Shown: positions 10,088 through 22,000 of the stretch, one piece after another
How the letters are laid out: each line of letters starts with the position of its first letter
Position numbering within the stretch: the first letter of the stretch is position 1
NCBI RefSeq assembly: GCF_029633865.1
Contig: NC_079211.1
Location: forward strand, 141,837,345-141,901,344
DNA: 64,000 bases
Direction of reading: 5' to 3'
From: Lampris incognitus
Taxonomy: Eukaryota > Chordata > Actinopteri > Lampriformes > Lampridae
Made by a program: the position numbers and the translations under genes
The notes under the pieces: generated by a model
The model's database searches: none
Told to the model about the DNA's origin: nothing
What the model saw: the letters and a program-made list of their open reading frames with translations, nothing else

Positions 10088-13000
10088 ATGGCAGATTCAG
10101 GCTCTGGTGACTCTGGTGGTCGACGCTCACCAGCACTAGGAGGACGCGGTAGAGCGTTGCCAGCTGGCGGCCGACTTCCGTCTGCCATCTCTCCGGGCCG
10201 CCTGCCCACTATGCGCTCCAGAGACCTTACCCTGGGAGGGGTAAAGAAGGTGAGGCCGGTCCCTGATAGGGAGTGGTGGTATTTATATTATATTTTATTT
10301 AATCATCCGTTTTAATGACCTGTTCTACAGCAGCGAAGCAGGTAATGCCGCTATCTTCTAACCGGGTCACTTTGTTGTTCCCGATAGGCACCTTGCTCAG
10401 CTGTACTTCTGACGTACTTTCTGGTCTTTGTTTACTTGCTCGGTGTTGTGCAAGGTGTTCATGCATCCTATCAAACGATGCACTGTTGGACTATTCAAAG
10501 GAAATCAATCTAAACTAAAGCTTTAAAAGACACGTCCCCTGTGGTGCCGAACAGAAATGTAGCTCCCGAATGATAAAAAAAAAAAAAAGTTGTGAAGGAA
10601 ATGCTGCAGCAAATGTTTAAATACACATCCAAAGGAGTTGAATCAAGTGCAAATACCAAGTCCAGTTGCACTTGATTCAGCTCCTTTGGATAACCATGAC
10701 CTGGATGAATGAGGACATTCACAGACATTGAAATGCAGAGTAAATATTTCTATCGTGGTAACGCTTTGATCATTTATGCAAGGGTAGAAAGACCCGCATA
10801 AAGGAACTTGCTTGCACCTGCATGTCTTTGTGGAGGCATTTGCATAGTTAATTTATTTAAAACATTGAGCTGTGCCCGAACATCAGGCGCCTTCACAGTT
10901 CACACAAAATATGACGCCTTAACTCGACACGCATGCACCTTTTTGGCAGGAACACTAACGACAGTACCGTATTTCCCAGACTATAAGTCGCTGTTTTCTC
11001 TACTCGTCTGGTTGGTCCAAAGCGAAGTACCGTATTTCCCAGACTATAAGTCGCTGCTTTTTCTACTCGTCTGGTTGGGCCAAAGCGACGTACCGTATTT
11101 CCAAGACTATAAGTCGCTGCTTTTTCTGCTCGTCTGGTTGGGCCAAAGCGAAGTACCGTATTTCCAAGACTATAGGTCGCTATTTTTTTTCTACTCGTCT
11201 GGCTGGTCCGAAGCGAAGTACCGTATTTCCCAGACTATAAATCGCTGTTTTCTCTACTCGTCTGGTTGGTCCAAAGCGAAGTACCGTATTTCCCAGACTA
11301 TAAGTCGCTGCTTTTTCTACTCGTCTGGTTGGTCCAAAGCGAAGTACCGTATTTCCCAGACTATAAGTCGCTGTATTTTTCTGCTCGTCTGGTTGGGCCA
11401 AAGTGAAGTACCGTATGTCCTAGACTATAGGACGCTGTTTTTTTTCTACTCGTCTGGTTGGTCCGAAGCGATTTATACAATGTAATTTTGTCGGACTAAT
11501 ACACTGCTTATCAACTAAGGCCACTAAAATGCACTGTTTAAGCTTGTGGCTAAATTGAAAATGCTGTACCACCGAAAAAGAAATAACTTTACTTCTACAC
11601 TCAATTGAAAAAAAAACGGCAGTCAATTGAGCCGTCATTTGCGAAAACCTGGTCAAGCCAGCTTGGTTTTTTTTAATGCGCGTCTATTCACGCTGTTACG
11701 GTACGGGTGCTTGGCGCGACCAAAAAGGACGAAATGATTTCTCACGTTATATTACACAAGTTTTGTTGAATGTAATAGAAATAATAGAAAATAAAAGGGA
11801 ACATGAACTCAAATTACAGTATACCATTCAAAATTTCCTCAGATTTGAACTGTCATATTTTATTTTCTTTAAGACGTTTGCTGAAAATTTCAATGGAGTC
11901 CTGTTAAGGATGTCACTGACTCTAACCATGTTAAATCTGGAGTTATTTCACTGTACAGTTTTTGACAAAATTAAGGGAAAGTCAGATCAAATCACATTAT
12001 GAGTCATAAGTATCATATTTGAACTGTCATTTTAAAAAAAATCCCCTCCAGTCGGCAGTACGTCTAGCCATTGATTAATTTAAGGAAATTAAATGACAGG
12101 AAATGATTAAACCTAAGAAAAGTATGTTAGTTATGAATAAATAACTTGGACATTACTCATTTGCAGAGGGAGAAATCACAAGCGCCGCCAAAAAAAAAAA
12201 ATCATTGTGGTACATCTGGACAATTTTTCGCGCTGCATCCGCTCGACTTCACTCACTCGCTTTGTGTTCGGAAGAGGTGTAAGAAGGACTAATTCCAGCA
12301 GTATGCATGTCATGAACTACTTATGCAAGTAATAGTTTTATCCCATACCAAAGTTGGGCGAAAAGGCTTATTTTTCATTTCTGGAAGGGACTTTGACATT
12401 GAATTGGGAATGGTTGCTCACGCTCACCTTCCTGTCCACTCATATTTATCGACATGAATCCCAATTAGTATGATTATATGAAAATAATTGTTGAATTTAT
12501 ACAAGATAGGTATATAATATGTTCGACCTACAAATCTACTACTGTACATCATTCGTAAGTTTCAAACATGTTGAATTAAAAACATCATCTGGTTAAAAAC
12601 GTCTCATATCCCTTTTTCTTGAAAGACCAACTTCGGTGTTATGGTTGTTATGCTGATTAGGATCTGATTATGCCGCACGGTGGCGCAGTGGTTAGCGCGG
12701 TCGCCTCACAGGAAGAAAGTGCTGGGTTTAGGATCTGATTATGCCGCACGGTGGCGCAGTGGTTAGCGTGGTCGCCACACAGGAAGAAAGTCCTGGGTTC
12801 GAGCCCCGGGGTAGTCCAACCTTGGGGGTCATCCCGGGTCGTCCTCTTGTGTGGAGTTTGCATGTTCTCCCCGTGTCCGCGTGGGTTTCCTCCGGGGGCT
12901 CCGGTTTCCTCCCACAGTCCAAAGACATGTAGGTCAGGGGAATTGGCCGTATTAAATTGTCCCTAGGTGTGAATGTGTGTGTGTTTGTCGGCCTTGTGAT

Positions 13001-16000
13001 GGCCTGGCGGCCTGTTCAGGGCGTCTCCCCGCCTGCCGCCCAGTGACTGCTGGGGTAGGCTGCAGCATCCCTGCGACCCTGACAGCAGGATAAGCGGTTT
13101 GGATAATGGCTGGATAGAAGGATCTGATTATAAGCCTGTGCGTATAATAGCTAAGGAACCACCACACAACTCAGTAAACACCTTGAAACGTTGACTTGCT
13201 TCAGAGTTGTTATGGCCGATACATGTGGTGGATGGATGTGTAATATGACAAAATAGTTGATTCCCCAAAGATGTTACTATCTGGGCCCAGAATGGCCCAT
13301 CTACCCAGCTGAGTAGCATATATTAGGGGTGTAACAATCCGATTCAATGGTCCAGTATCATAGATGCAAAGGGAAAACATCGATCTGTATCATTATCTTC
13401 AAGATGTGCCTAGGATGTGAACATTTTAAAGCTCAATATCGCCAAACCACTGAGCACACAGATAGGAGCTTGTAAATCCAACCTGGTGAAGCATAGATGT
13501 GCATGGTTCATGTTCATAAATGAAAGGTCGTTAAGGGTTCGTTAAGTTAACAGATAAAAAAACATTTGCACCGAAACATGAGAAATTATAGTGAACAACA
13601 ATAGAGCTATTTTTATTCTTTTTATTAAAAAGAATAGATTGTGTTACATTGAAATGTCTGGAAGAGCTCAGTAATTTAGTTGTCAAATCAACTAAATTAC
13701 TGAGGCATATGATATCGTCTCATATCGATTGCAGGCCCTTGAATTGAATCAAAATCGTACCGTGGCAGACTTTGTGGTTATCAGCAAATATCGTATCGTT
13801 GTCCAAAGAATTGATGTAATATTGTATCGTGATGCAACTTGTGATTTACACCCCTAGAAAATACACCTGATGATTCCACTTCAGTATAAATCGAATCTCT
13901 TGTCTAATATGATACACTCTCGTACCGCTTTTACATCGAACTGAGAGCCTGGATTTTTTTCCTGAGATTGTGTTTGTTCTAAGTGGGTCGATGGCTCAAA
14001 ATACTTAGAAATAAAGTTGTAGGTACAGGACGGAAATCTTCATAAATTCCTGCATGTTGTTTTCCTCAAGCAGTAGGGCTTGGCCACCTGAATTCAGGAA
14101 ACGGTACATTTTGAACATGCCGCTGGTTTACTCTCACATTTCTTATCTCATCTCGGACTTTTAACTGTCATGTTCTGTTGTCAGCTAGAAGAAGATGAAG
14201 GACAGGATTAGGAACAAGTATATCAGAGGGACGGTTCAGGTTGGATGGTTTGGAGACAAAGCAAGAGAGGCAAGATTGAGATGGCTTGGACATGTGCGGA
14301 GGAGAGATGATGGGTATATTGGGAGAAGGATGCTGAATATGGAGCTGCCAGGGAAGAGGAAGGCCAAAGAGGAGGTTTATGGATGTGGTGAGGGAGGACA
14401 TGCAGGTGGCTGGTGTGACAGAGGAAGATGCAGAGGACAGGAAGCGATGGAAACGGATGATCCGCTGTGGCGCCCCCTAACGGGAGCAGCCGAAAGTAGT
14501 AGTAGTAGTAGTAGTAGTATTAGTTGTTCAGTTTTCAGCTAGACCTAATAGTTCTGTCCTCCAAACTGTTTCAGTTTTAGTGTGAAGTGAGGAAACCATC
14601 ATGTCCGCTGGTAAAGTTCTGTAAACTCCTCGCTGTGCTGACAGGCTTGATCGTCATCTCTGAATGATGAAACCCTCTTTCTCACCAAAATCTTCGGATT
14701 TACCTGGATTGTAAATCCTTGGCTGGCTGTTGATGATCCCCTTTCAGACCGCCAAATTTATTCAAGCTTTCTTTCAGAAAACACCCTTTCACAGACCCCT
14801 ACTAAATCCATGCTACTACTACTTTCGGCTGCTCCCGTTAGGGATCGCCACAGCGGATCATCTGTTTCCATTTCTTCCTGTCTTCTGCATCTTACCTACT
14901 AAATCCATGCATTTTAGTTAAGTCAGACCTCTAAGTTATGTCAGACCTCTATAAGCTATGTCATCCTACTAATATCTAACTGTGATGGAAATAGTTAATA
15001 TGGGGTCGTTCACCATCAGCTCACTGAATTGTGGGTATGGGAGCCAGGGAATGAAAAGGTGAGAATTCAACAACTCCATCATCACCACCACCACCACCAC
15101 CACCTCCTCCCCGCATGTGAAGTAGTGAATCACTACCTTGGCTAGAAAGGCTGTGCAGCACCAGTTTGCTTGCTGTGTTTTTGTAACCTTCACTAAAAAG
15201 CCTTGCTCTTAATTATGTCCCGAGGGCCCTCAGCTTCAAGTATTCGCAGCGTTTTCCGTCCCTCGTAGTGCCCCCCCCCACACACACTCCTCGCCAGTTC
15301 GATATATCTCAACTTTAATCATTCCACTTCAGAGCATTGCTGCGATAACCCATAGGCCTCTGGCTCCCTTATGGATGGTGGTTAGCCGCGAGAGTCTGGG
15401 AAGTAGGGCATAAATGGGATGGTGAGGGAAGCGATTGAGAAACACTAGCCGGCAGAGCTGAAGGAAAAGGACCAGTAGCTGTTCGTTGTCGTGGTGTCAC
15501 TATAGAGTGAAACCGGCGTTGTATGTAACGTAGCAAGTTGTTCATGTTTAAGAGGGCTGTGGGGCCTAAACACGCTTCACCAGTTGTTTGATGGCGGGGG
15601 GGGGGGGGGGTCCTTGCAGAGGTCATTGATACTTGTCCCCTGCTAGAGGAACGTATCAAGAGGAGACGGGCTTAGGTTATGTTTGCCTCCAGTCTGGCAG
15701 AGAGATGGACACCATGCTATTTTAAATCAGAATCAAAATGGCATCCTCTTTTTTTTTTTACTACGTTATTAATCCCCGTGGGGAAATTCGTGCTCTGCGT
15801 TTAACCCTTCCTCGCTGTGTAGCTAGGAGCAGTGGGCAGCCGCCGTGCAACGCCCGGGGACCAACTCCAGTTCCTCTTTCCATTGCCTCGGTCAGACAGG
15901 AGTATTAACCCTAACATGCATGTCTTTTTGATGGTGGGGGGGGGGGGGGGGCGGAGCACCCGGAGAAAACCCACTGCAGATACGGGGAGAACATGCAAAC

Positions 16001-19000
16001 TCCACACAGAAAGGACCTGGGATGAACCCCAAGGTTGGACAACCCCGGGGTTCGAACGCAGGACCTACTTGCTGTGAGGCGACGGCACTGGGCCACCATC
16101 TTATAAAGGCTGTATTCTTGTGAGCTTCCTATTGAGCCCAAAACCATTAACCCTGAAAAAAAAAAGTCTTCAATGTGAATCTTTTGGCTGAAGTACTTGT
16201 GTTTACCAATCAATTCAACAAACTCCAACCGGGTTTGTAAGCCCACAAAACATTTTGTTTGCACAGCAAAGTAAATAGTGGTTTAGCAGAGGCATGGGGG
16301 AGGAGGGGGAGAGATTAATATGTTTAATCAGAGAAGGAACTGTTTGTCTGGCTGAGCGGTTTATTCTCTGGTGGTTGGCTGACGCCATTCAAGTAATTAA
16401 ATCTTGATTGTCTAAGGGGATAGGTCCGTCACATCATCGTCTCTTTCAAAACAAACATCTGGGAGTTACATGGCCCCTAATTTCCTTGTCCTTCTTCCTC
16501 ATTTGTGCAGTATTTGAGCACTGCGTGTGGATTCTGTCAAAATGTTGACTGGTTATCACTGGTAAAAAGTTGCTAATGTCCAGAGCTGCAGACATTTCTG
16601 TTCATTAGGGTGTTAACGATCCATCGATCCGGGTCGATGTATGGATTCAGTGGCCAGTGATCCAATATCATCTACGCAAAGTGAAAACATTGTTCCGTAT
16701 TGCTTAGGTTGTGAACATTTTAAAGCTCGGTATCTTTAAACCACTGAGCAGAGACAGAACCTTGTAAATCCAAGGTGATGAAGCAGAGACGTGCATGGGT
16801 TATGTCCATAGTTGAAAGGTCATCAAGGGCTCATTAAGTTAACCGATGAAAAACATTTGCACTTAAACACTTTATAGTGAACAACAGGAGGTCTATTTTT
16901 ATTCTTTTTCTTAAAAAGAATAGATTGTTTTTTACTTAAATGTCTGGAAGAGCTCCGTAATAAAAATGTCAAATCATATTTTAGTTGCAAAGCAACTGCT
17001 TGTGTTAAATGGGCATGTGATATCGTCTCATATCGATCACAGGCTCCTGAACTGAATCGAAATCGAATCCGTGGCAGACTGTGATATCAGAAAATAGCTA
17101 ATCGTTGTCCAGAGAATCAATGTAATGTTGTATGGTGATGCAACTTGTGATTTACACCCTTAGTATGTATCCCGGTGAGCCCATCTGCAATTAATAGCCT
17201 ATAAAAGGGCAGCTGGAGAGTATCGGGGTTATAGAGCAAAATGGGAGATATGGAGCTGCTGCTGCTGCTGCTATCTCACCACTGTCTCCGCATGTGCCGG
17301 TGGGGTGGGGTGGGGTGGGGGGTTCTTCAACTCCTATTAACAACATAGATAACAGAATGTATTTGCACTTGTTGGCATTGCACTTTGCCTCTTACTTCGC
17401 CTGTATATGATCAATCCTTATATATATATCTAAAGATTGTTGTATATTCTATGTTAAGTACGCTGAGAGAGCCACGAAACCTGAGTCAAATCCCATGTAT
17501 GTGCAAACCTACATGGCCAATAAACATAGTTCTGATGTAACTGAAAAGGGGAAGAATGCACAGTGACCAGTAGTGACCCATGACCAATAATGGACTGTCT
17601 TGTTAATAGCCATTCAACTTCGTGGCTACTCATAATTGCCTCCCCCTCAAATGTTGAAAAGTTGATTAAATGCAGAGGTAACTAATTAATGGGCACATTA
17701 CATTTCCATATATAGAAGGCTGGGGGTAGCCAACGTAAGCCTGTTTTAATTGTAACACTGTTCTGCTACAAATTATAACCATACCAGCACACAGTCTTGA
17801 CGGGGTAGTATTTACATACACATTGGCCACGATGTCGCTCGCCTGCATAATAATATAGTTATACATGAGGAAAAAAACAAAGTATACATCACAAAATATT
17901 TATTTTTGATTGGCCTTCACCCCATGGGTGCTCAAACCTTTCGGTGGGTCGAGCACCGCAGCACCCCCGGGTTAGGCGCCTATGCACTACAGTGCCCAGC
18001 CATATGATTTGCTTTACCTTGTATTTGGCTTTCAAGTTGCCCCACTTTTTTTGGGGGGGGGGGGCTGCATGGCAGTCACCTGCCCCTCCAACCCGGTTTC
18101 CTTCACCACCTACCTGTAGGTCCTAATTAGCTTAATTCGCCATACTCATTTATAATAACACGATAACCCACAAATATTACTCCCAGCCTGATGACTGCAT
18201 TCCCTCCTTGCTGACTGTTTATAACCCTTGCCTCTATTAAGGCAAGTTAAGGCAAGGGTTTCAGTATCTGTGACTGAGGTAAACTTCATTAATGATATTC
18301 CTACATGTTGGCAGTATAATGATGCTCAGAATGAAGTAATAACAAATGCAAACGCTACAACGTTAGCGTCACTTAGATCATTTTACAACAGCAGTGTAAA
18401 GTTCATAGTTCACCTATGGGTTTAACATATTGTTGCGTTGTCCCCCGAATTCGCTACAATATTGCCTATGTTCAAAACATAAGCGTCTGTTACATACAAG
18501 CAAGTTATGGCAAAATATGGAACACGCTTAATAAGCAACGGTATGATGATATGTATCCCTGCTCGCTCATGTTGATTTTTTTTTTTTACCTTTAAGACGT
18601 TTTTTTTAAAAAAAAAATTTTATTGAACAAAACATATAAACAAGAAATTATTACATCACAATGGGACAAAAAGTAGTTACAAAAATATAAATTATTTCAA
18701 AATTAAAATTTACGTATCCATAAAAAAAGAAAAGAAAAGACAAAATAAAAAAGCTCAAGATACAGGATTTAAGTTAAATTATATTCTTCACATAGTCTTC
18801 TGGTTTTGCTGGCTTTAGATTCATACATTCTTTTAAAGATTCTAAATAGGATGAAAGAAGTGCTTTGAATACACTAATGTTTGGACGCTGGTGTGCAAAT
18901 TTGGTACAATGAATATGAAATTTAGCAAATATTAATAGAAGGTTGATAATATAAATTTTTTCTGAACTTATTTCCTCATTTTGTGACAGACCAAATAAAA

Positions 19001-22000
19001 CATGTTGGATGTCCAGTTTACAAGAAGAGTCAATTTTGTAATTTGTGAGATTATTTAGATCAATCCAAAAAACACGAGAGTAGGTACAATCCCAAAATAA
19101 ATGACATATGGTTTCATCCACATTGCCACAAAAGGAACAGAGTGTGTCAATATTAATCTTGTATTTTACAAGAAGGGACTTGACTGGATAACATCTGTGA
19201 AGCAGTTTAAATGTAACTTCTCGTACCTTATTTGTAATACAATATTTTCGTGATAAAATCCAAGTGTTCCTCCAATCTATGTCATTATACATATGATTCC
19301 AGTAGAAAACGGCTGCAGGTTTAGAAACAATGTCTCTCTGAATAATATTTCTAACGCATTGAATAGTGGCTTTATCACTTAATAAAGGACACAAGTTACC
19401 AATATATGTGTCATCAGGAGTTAAACCTGGAATAGTACAACTTTTACCTTTAGGAGCAGACAACAATAACCTTCTAACTCCATCTGATATTGCATCAAAT
19501 ACAATAGAATATTCTCTTGGTGTAACAGGGAAACCATATACAGAGAGAAATTCTTCATAAGTGAAAAGCTGACCATTGGCATTCAGTAGCTCGCTCATGT
19601 TGATTGTTTCCATGAACGGCCGAATAGCGCGTCGCTTTATAAACGTTGCTGCCGCAAGGAATTGTGGGAGGGCATCCTCTCGTTTCCTTTCGTGAACAAT
19701 GGTCCGGCGTACCCTACGCTAAAAGGCGTTAAGAAAGGAAGCGTCTTTCTTTGGCTCTTATCATGGCTGCCACTTAGTTACTTCCGGGTCATTTCACTCA
19801 GGCCACCTTCCTAAACAAAAAAAAGAAAAACACTATTCGAACGCAGCCCGGGTTTTCGCAAATGGCTGCCCGCTTGGCTGCAGTACTGAGAAGCTAGCAG
19901 CCCGCAACCGGCGGTGGTCTTAAAACGAAATGCCAAAGAGAAAGAGCTATACTGCGGAATTTAAACTGCAGATGGTTAAATATGCAGCCGAACACGGCAA
20001 CCGGGCGGCGGAGCGACAGTTTGGAGTCAGTGAGAAAATTGTCAGGGACTGGCGCAGGGCAGAGGCGACGCTCGGCGAGATGAGAAAAACGAAGAGGGCC
20101 AATCGCGGTCTGAAAGCTCGCTGGCCCGAGCTGGAGGGGAAAGTCCGCGAATGGGCACTGGAGCAGCGGGCTGCGGGCAGAGCCCCGTCGACGGCGCAGT
20201 TCCGTCTCCGAGCCCAAGCGATCGCCAGGGAGATGAATATCGACGATTTCGCGGGTGGGCGATCCTGGTGCTACCGCTTCATGCAGCGCAGCCGCTTGTC
20301 CATCAGGGCACGCGTGTGTCCGACGCGGCCGCCGGACGTCCGAGCCCAGACGGCCGGTTTTCGTGCCTTCGTCGAAAAGGAAATCGCCGCGCACGACGTG
20401 TCGCCGGATCATATAGTTAACATGGGCGAGGTGCCCTTCGCTTTCGATGTGCCCACGAGCCGAGGTGTCGCGCGGAAGGGCCGGAGGAGCGCGAACGTCG
20501 CGACGACCGGCCGCGAGAAACTGCGCTTCACGGCGGTGCTGGCGTGCTGCGGGGACGGCAGGAAACTGCCGCCGATGGTCATCTTTAAGCGGAAGAACGT
20601 ACCAAAAGACGCGTTCCCGCCCTCCGTGGTCGTGACCACGAACGCGAAAGGGCGGATGGACGAGGAGACGGCGAGCTCTTGGCTAGCCAAGTGCTACGCC
20701 AAACGTCCAGACGGGCTCTCCAAAACACGCAGAGCCCTGCTGCTGGTGGGCGGCGGCACGCGAACGCGCGTCACGGCACGCGTCCAAGACCTGATCCGAG
20801 CCTGCAACTCCATACCTGTGCTGCCCGGGGGCTCGACTAAGTCGCCGCTGCCACTCGACATCACCGTCGGCCGCAGTTTTAAGGCCGCCTTGCGTCGCCT
20901 GTGGGAAAGGTGGGTGGTGGACGGGGAGCGCAGCTACGCGGAGACCGGGAGGATGTGTCACGCCACTTTTAAGGACGTTGTGGGGTGGATCGACGGAGCG
21001 TGGGCCGCGGTGACAACCGACTCCGTCCTGTCCGGCTTCCAGAAGGCCGGGCTGATCGGAACCGATGCCGTGACGGGGATGGACACGCCGCCTCATCTCC
21101 CCTGGGGGTTACACAGCGACACGGAGGGGGGAGAATTCAGTCGGTTGGGCGATGCAGATGAGGCATGAACTTTTATTTCCTTAATGTGCTTTTGCTTGTT
21201 AGATATGCCCAGTCTGCATTTTCTATAGGCTTTTAGTGTCGGTTCTGGCGAATCAAAAAGCACTTTCAAGTTTGTTTATTGCGGAAGAATGACATAAAAA
21301 AACGAAATATAAATGCGACTTATACACCGAAGCGACTTGTAGTCTGGGAAATACGGTATCTATAATTTAAAAAAAATACATGTAAAAAGCTATAAATCTT
21401 GCCAAACCTTGGAATGTCACCCCGGGATCAAAAGATTGTTCGGATTTGGTGCTGCTTGATGTCTCTTGCTTAATTTTTCCCCCTCTCCCCATTTCAGAAA
21501 ACCTTCACTCCCAACATAATCGGCCGAAAAGCCAAAGAAGAGTAAGTTAACCAAAACCAAAAAGAGGACAAGAAAATTGCTTTGGCAGAATGTTTTCTTT
21601 TTACCTGACTCTTGAAGAATAAAATGTGTCTTTCGTTCCAGACTAAAAGTTGAGAGCGGATATAGAAGAGAGAGGAAGGATGGAGAGCGGGGCGGCAGGG
21701 GTCAGCGGGATCGAGGCAGGGGCCGTGGTCGCCCAGAGATTATCCAATCCCACTCTATCTTTGAACAAGGACCATCGGAGGCGTCGATGAAAAAGAGAGG
21801 TAATCTCTTTTTCACCCTTTCGACCGGTTACCCAGTAACCGCATAACGTTGCTATGGTTGATACTTAGTGATGATTGTTACTGAGTTAATAATGTATTAT
21901 GGTCTGCCATGGCAGTAACATGTGTATCTCTTGGCAAATTTAATGTGATTTGTTAATAATAATAATAATAATAATATTTATATTGCGCTTACAATGTGTG

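Follow-up and report, generated by a model that had tools for sequence, protein, structure and literature searches.

A Passer-derived reading frame lacking two catalytic aspartates in polr3d intron 1 of Lampris incognitus, a probable domesticated host gene

Several host genes are known to derive from transposases of the pogo superfamily. In the portions of PMC7386202 and PMC9976928 consulted, the domain order BrkDBD, HTH_Tnp_Tc5 and DDE_1 is given as the layout of the Passer-derived gene POGK, and DD35D as characteristic of almost every Passer element. The triad of POGK is partly lost and reads DN35D (PMC7386202, excerpt), and in HeLa cells human POGK failed to mobilise a Passer donor (PMC9976928, excerpt). 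POGZ is likewise described as of Passer transposase origin, and it carries zinc fingers. CENPB and TIGD3-5 are also pogo-derived, and the same excerpt of PMC7386202 reports that their triad is no longer recognizable; they contain CENP-B_N instead of BrkDBD and stem from other source families (pogoR, Tigger). Teleost Passer transposons, as far as the available part of PMC9976928 describes them, show the BrkDBD, HTH_Tnp_Tc5 and DDE_1 order, 28-bp terminal repeats and DD35D. Their proteins measure 425-434 aa (three fishes), the triad is present, and some fishes hold near-identical intact copies (PMC9976928, excerpt).

Here we analyze a 412-codon open reading frame (ORF) within a window of 64,000 nucleotides, this being the whole stretch of DNA under study, from Lampris incognitus. 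The ORF resembles POGK in its domain order and in the partial loss of the triad. In contrast to POGK, which carries a fused KRAB domain, Pfam detected no KRAB in the ORF, and upstream of the ATG the frame is closed by a stop at a distance of two codons; furthermore, both the first and the second Asp are Gly in the ORF, which goes back to an insertion event of its own, in a polr3d intron of a fish. With POGZ it shares the Passer origin but not the zinc fingers, and from CENPB and TIGD3-5 it is set apart by its BrkDBD and its source family. A frame elsewhere in the same genome (L023), which we take to be POGZ-like, differs from the ORF by Asp in all three motifs and is about 20% identical to the ORF protein. 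Unlike the teleost Passer transposons, the element around the ORF stands alone among the copies found, is split and appears disarmed. Judged from its sequence, the ORF most likely joins the group of pogo-derived genes formed by POGK, POGZ, CENPB and others. A description of the locus was not found among the matches listed for teleost pogo domestication, for pogo together with GC-biased gene conversion and for a transposase in a polr3d intron, within the portions of this literature that were accessible.

The sequence-only reading of the window had proposed 412 stop-free codons with a Brinker/POGK-like HTH, a CENP-B-like HTH and a DDE_1-like domain, and both translation and Pfam confirmed this assignment (Table 1). 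The three domains follow each other in the Passer order, and the element possesses terminal inverted repeats and a TA target site, the latter being a trait of the Passer family. By these features the ORF is of Passer origin and belongs to the pogo superfamily. A chance open frame was excluded, since shuffles that keep the composition of each codon position contain 8.8 stops on average. In a PDB search the ORF protein matched CENP-B with E 2.7e-4, beside which isochorismate and anthranilate synthases (E 0.0076-0.0083) were discarded as chance matches. Viral contigs gave eight loci for the ORF protein, all of them matching residues 4-43 alone (38%), and 0 loci for a short Passer-like peptide. 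The location inside polr3d intron 1 was also correctly recognized from the letters: exons were found on both sides, those downstream of the ORF match RNA_pol_Rpc4, and the ORF lies on the sense strand of an intron that extends from about 10250 to 21497.

Table 1 Features of the polr3d intron 1 locus (window positions).
Feature	Position	Strand	Remarks
polr3d exon 1, coding part	10088..10249	+	MADSGSG...LTLGGVKK; splice donor GTGAGG at 10250
63-bp x 8 tandem array, unit starts with Passer terminal inverted repeat	10963..11471	+	5' end of split element
Passer 5' UTR, left part	11461..11612	+	76-78% identical to four sisters (BLAST pieces)
8.3-kb inserted segment in Passer 5' UTR	11616..19884		bounded by inverted repeat
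Dispersed repeat "TE-A"	17577..19842		within 8.3-kb insert, interrupted by LINE
LINE fragment (zf-RVT), apparently 5'-truncated	18578..19588	-	nested in dispersed repeat
CpG-rich leader with ETS-like site	19606..19842	+	terminal part of dispersed repeat
GC-shift tract (approximate)	19848..21190		left limit by eye; tapers in 3' UTR
Passer 5' UTR, right remainder	19885..19929	+	clear sister homology from 19914; weaker, by eye, before
Intact Passer-derived ORF	19930..21168	+	412 aa, stop-free; predicted catalytically dead
BrkDBD (Brinker-type HTH)	19939..20073	+	residues 4-48, Pfam 5e-10
HTH_Tnp_Tc5 (CENP-B-like HTH)	20122..20304	+	residues 65-125, Pfam 6e-12
First catalytic position, Gly166 (GGC)	20425..20427	+	Asp in 5/5 covering sisters
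DDE_1 domain	20524..21039	+	residues 199-370, Pfam 2e-17
Second catalytic position, within Gly274-276	20749..20757	+	Asp in 5/5 covering sisters
Third catalytic position, Asp310 (GAC), kept	20857..20859	+	Asp in 4/5 sisters (L017 = His)
Passer 3' UTR	21169..21331	+	common to sisters
3' terminal inverted repeat CCGTATTT	21332..21358	-	repeat 21332-21356, TA target site 21357-21358
polr3d exon 2, KTFTPNIIGRKAKEE	21498..21541	+	limits from splice-site-like bases

The genome itself (1.48 Gb, 537 contigs) was searched for related copies and the best candidates were scored. With the ORF protein, 23 matching places were obtained from 32 scored candidates, comprising the ORF itself, six sister copies (L017-L022) and distant pogo genes. 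All six sisters are broken by stops and frameshifts. Their amino acid identity to the ORF amounts to about 50-65% in the main stretches, falls to 30-39% where the frame shifts and reaches at most 81% in short pieces, and their DNA identity is 68-72% in the main blocks. Many near-identical copies with an intact DDD triad, which according to the sequence-only reading would have pointed to a recently dead transposon, did not turn up: among the best candidates from the 1.48-Gb genome neither the protein nor the DNA search contained a single one. The ORF is thereby the only intact copy among those found, and its frame is kept while the related copies decay, the pattern of a domesticated gene. A search with the BrkDBD profile returned the ORF alone (1 match; 18 candidates scored); it missed remnants of BrkDBD in the sisters that BLAST makes visible and was dropped as a proof of uniqueness. 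Elsewhere in the genome, a pogo-like DDE_1 frame (L059, G000:C21:11489114-11489602) with 342 aa open was noticed that bears NMDETG, LLILDN and QPLD motifs.

For the catalytic positions, sisters L017-L021 were projected on the window, L022 lying outside the motif sites. The consensus codons GAT and GAC of motifs 1 and 2 correspond to GGC and GGC in the ORF, whose motif 2 is one codon longer than that of the sisters, so that residue 274 or 275, both Gly, is the partner of the second Asp. Between residues 274 and 310 there are 35 residues, which equals the DD35D spacing of Passer with the first two D replaced by G; L018 reads D-35-D at motifs 2-3, and L019-L021 contain indels in this stretch. A wider alignment comprised 12 hand-chosen pogo-like frames of the same genome (10 of 30 loci plus L023 and L025) and revealed Asp in 4/5 covering rows at motif 1 (the other being Glu), in 11/11 at motif 2 and in 10/11 at motif 3. 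Since Asp occupies motifs 1 and 2 in all five covering sisters, the ORF copy has lost both, and since Asp is aligned at the motif sites in the sisters as well as in the pogo-like frames, the catalytic Asp residues are not to be sought elsewhere in the ORF. Both alignments thus agree with the earlier proposal that two of the three catalytic Asp are gone and Asp310 is left, and the comparison with pogo frames suggested at that time verified the replaced residues. With G166, G274-276 and D310 the ORF lacks the complete triad of an active Passer transposon, and the reading as an active transposon was rejected.

A 5' terminal repeat was sought close upstream of the ORF, where none was found. The 5' half of the element is located 8.3 kb upstream and was recognised by comparison with the 5' UTRs of the sisters. 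It stops 26-32 nt before the position of the sisters' ATG, and clear sister homology restarts 16 nt upstream of the ATG of the ORF. The inverted repeat that bounds the intervening segment (11616-11652 and 19848-19884) is identical at 29 of 37 positions and scores 42, compared to a maximum of 29 in 500 shuffles. On account of the matching breakpoints and this bounding inverted repeat, we read both halves as one Passer element split by the 8.3-kb insertion. By eye, a possible 8-bp target duplication accompanies the insert, with three differing bases. Against this reading, the left 5' UTR part also resembles an abundant family of short elements (40 scored of 500 candidates), although the relatives listed end at query base 108-119 and the fragment in the window reaches base 152. 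The split element still has a terminal repeat at either end, which counts against domestication. The 25-bp core of the repeat has 238 matches in the genome at up to two mismatches (0 for the backward control), 12 of them exact, and the array in polr3d intron 1 accounts for 7 of the 238 and 4 of the 12.

The LINE fragment within the insert retains a long open frame and is flanked by a perfect 17-bp target-site duplication (18561-18577 and 19589-19605). The CpG-rich leader with its ETS site had been put forward as evidence of domestication, an argument that does not hold, because the leader is the end of a dispersed repeat with 14 other places in the genome and therefore cannot count as a separate line of evidence for a host promoter. 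A unique host promoter at this position was dropped as an interpretation for the same reason. The ETS-like site is covered by six other copies; it is full in two of them (L043 and L046), and L048 keeps TTCCGGGT. Among the TE-A copies L043-L049, the six other copies inspected continue downstream into quite different sequences. In L049, the TE-A copy is followed by a remnant that resembles the start of a Brinker-type transposase (33% over 30 aa, E 0.003).

The age of the copy was measured by the divergence of its noncoding flanks from the sister consensus. The 5' UTR differs at 15/117 sites (12.8%), compared to 13.9-17.3% in four sisters, and the 3' UTR at 18/169 sites (10.7%), compared to 6.0-18.5% in six sisters; pairwise flank values agree that the window copy is no more diverged than the sisters. 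It follows that the copy would be about as old as the broken sisters, provided that both halves belong to one element. The very young inactivated copy, which the sequence-only reading had left as an alternative, is disfavoured by flanks that are 11-13% diverged and by the nested 8.3-kb insertion that splits the element.

For the analysis of selection, the majority of the decayed sister copies was taken as the ancestor. The ORF differs from it at 236/1177 sites, with divergences of 0.13, 0.16 and 0.31 at the first, second and third codon position. The sisters, each compared with a leave-one-out consensus, show little or no difference between codon positions, the third position yielding 0.12-0.13 in five of them and 0.20 in the short L022 (L017, for example, shows 0.12/0.12/0.12). 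Against the decayed-copy consensus, the dN/dS of the ORF is 0.19 (bootstrap 0.14-0.26), with a dS of 0.77 that is inflated by the GC shift. For L017-L022 the values are 0.79, 0.53, 0.36, 0.89, 0.73 and 0.52, the last being based on 66 codons, and the bootstrap limits of L018 and L019 likewise stay below 1. In a simulation, changes drawn from the ORF's own substitution spectrum were randomly placed over the same 358 codons. The ORF holds 82 codons with silent changes versus 43.3 simulated (maximum 64 in 5000 runs) and 103 replacement codons versus 136.0 simulated (minimum 117 in 5000). After exclusion of CpG sites, 49 silent changes remain versus 28.9 (maximum 42 in 3000) and 56 replacement changes versus 76.1 (minimum 63). 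In the same simulation for L017-L021 the silent excess is absent in L017, L018, L020 and L021, the silent changes of L020 even being fewer than simulated (15 vs 24.5), and mild in L019 (P 0.027). The dN/dS of L018 and L019 and the silent excess of L019 suggest that some constraint predates the insertion. The dN/dS below 1 anticipated for a host gene was hence obtained together with the support of the simulation, although part of a signal measured against a consensus of decayed copies may predate the insertion.

The constraint is unevenly distributed along the protein. Replacements number 4 in the BrkDBD versus 9.1 simulated, 12 versus 18.6 in HTH_Tnp_Tc5 and 65 versus 84.4 in the DDE region; the linker (residues 131-154, 24 codons) shows no constraint with 13 versus 11.7, and the C-terminal tail contains 6 versus 8.4 (P 0.08). 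The changed codons are rarer in the DNA-binding half (19/107) than in the DDE half (65/202, P 0.007). Frameshifts were counted conservatively: neighbouring gaps were merged, and L022, everything in the tail beyond 21060 and one site common to four copies were dropped; 29 events in 5202 nt of five sisters lead to an expectation of 6.3 in the ORF, where none is seen (P about 0.002). This count supersedes a looser one on six copies with 62 events and 13.1 expected. As only 0.8 stops are expected under the GC-ward spectrum, their absence from the ORF is weak evidence of selection. Overall, the data support that the frame is kept by selection on the protein, the constraint extending over the two DNA-binding domains as well as the DDE region.

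The ORF coincides with a tract of strongly directional substitution. At 209/627 consensus sites A/T has changed to G/C, compared to 12/550 changes the opposite way. Of the AT-to-GC changes, 88 are located outside CpG, and for 64 of these the base of the ORF is absent from all sisters. The AT-to-GC rate starts at 0.10 over the first 80 nt, climbs to a maximum of 0.52 in the middle of the ORF and declines to 0.07 in the 3' UTR. The GC content reaches 64% in the ORF versus 44-52% in the sisters, and of the 1254 dinucleotides counted in the window copy 151 (12%) are CpG, versus 1.6-3.7% in the sisters. In contrast to the ORF, the left 5' UTR is normal (AT-to-GC 6/80, GC-to-AT 6/37; P 3e-7 and 4e-4), and the repeat-derived leader is mildly GC-biased (12/117 vs 4/94). 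Purely A/T-to-G/C changes underlie 89 of the 103 replacements, D166G and D274G included. The high GC content, which had been counted as a sign of domestication, is a substitution tract that itself includes both catalytic losses. The AT-to-GC changes affect 111/198 third positions and 98/429 first and second positions (P 7e-16), which points to selection on top of the shift, since conversion bias cannot favour third positions. Of the two inverted-repeat ends of the insert, the one next to the ORF shows 6 AT-to-GC and 2 GC-to-AT differences (counted by eye), which would fit a GC shift that continued after the 8.3-kb insertion. A likely cause of the tract is that GC-biased gene conversion acted at a recombination site rich in CpG and resembling a promoter. 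In swordtail fish, recombination is reported to be more frequent near transcription start sites and CpG islands (PMC5519329, excerpt), and GC-biased gene conversion has been hypothesized to help fix deleterious mutations in mammals (PMC3744432, excerpt). Conversion bias, and not selection, may thus have driven the disarming of the transposase.

Taken as a whole, the locus is best explained as a domesticated, transposition-dead Passer-derived host gene, which we consider probable on the grounds of sequence comparison. Host domestication after loss of catalysis, as proposed by the sequence-only reading, is supported by the six broken sisters, the failure to find a near-identical copy and the frame-specific constraint, even though the leader and the GC content no longer contribute to it. 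Alternatively, the frame might not be a gene but a young copy that lost its catalysis only recently and derives from a diverged, GC-rich Passer lineage; its silent excess and GC shift would then have arisen while that lineage was still active. An active source could gather silent changes before inserting, two sisters also show some constraint, GC-to-AT changes in the ORF are few, and its third positions are 63-67% identical to those of five sisters, which share 79-82% with each other. On the other hand, the best candidates of the protein and DNA searches of the genome included no further representative of such a lineage, the divergence of neither noncoding flank exceeds that of the sisters, and the GC-to-AT changes of the left 5' UTR indicate normal ageing. 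Moreover, the 8.3-kb insertion that splits the element contains a nested LINE of its own, and the inverted-repeat ends of this 8.3-kb segment differ, by eye, as though the shift had continued afterwards; a young GC-rich copy is thus rather unlikely.

We regard it as very unlikely that the frame is a non-functional relic, surviving by GC-biased conversion that removed AT-rich stops and by chance escape from indels. The GC tract is real, and the small number of expected stops renders their absence uninformative; conversion, however, is blind to the reading frame, and yet the changes prefer third positions. The silent excess also holds outside CpG, the linker is free whereas the domains are constrained, and the frameshifts expected from the sisters are missing. 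Preservation of the DNA-binding domains after loss of the triad, in a genome where 238 terminal-repeat-like sites remain, would equally suit a dominant-negative repressor that the transposon family maintains for itself, i.e. a selfish inhibitor acting on terminal repeats and not a host gene. Such an inhibitor would have no visible means of spread, as no second intact copy was found among the best candidates, which makes this reading very improbable.

For the domesticated host gene we propose the following course of events. A Passer transposon would have inserted into polr3d intron 1 on the sense strand, probably during the burst to which the six sisters also belong, and the 8.3-kb segment would have entered its 5' UTR later. 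The CpG-rich repeat end thereby placed before the frame may act as a promoter. Selection would then have kept the frame as a host protein while the sisters decayed. If produced, the protein would bind terminal-repeat-like DNA and regulate or shield such sites, and in this way it would regulate elements or genes that carry them; candidate targets are the 238 near-matches to the terminal repeat, including the seven in the tandem array of the same intron. The AT-to-GC tract would be the product of GC-biased gene conversion in a recombination hotspot rich in CpG. More tentatively, and with some doubt on our part, GC-biased gene conversion could both have disarmed the transposase and helped to make the gene: the CpG-rich repeat end would have established a stable recombination hotspot, where conversion bias fixed about 200 AT-to-GC changes, both Asp-to-Gly replacements included, while selection for DNA binding kept the rest.

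Most studies of domesticated transposases concern cases in which domestication lies far back, and few traces are left of the way in which the enzymes were rendered harmless. At this locus, six sisters of about equal age, as judged by their flanks, serve as near-neutral controls in the same genome, and a single branch records the loss of the triad, the retention of the DNA-binding domains and the GC-biased tract. Confirmation in related fishes would make the ORF one more Passer-derived gene of independent origin, on which it could be tested whether biased gene conversion is able to disarm a transposase. Should the conversion reading be true, domestication would start here with a non-adaptive loss of catalysis.
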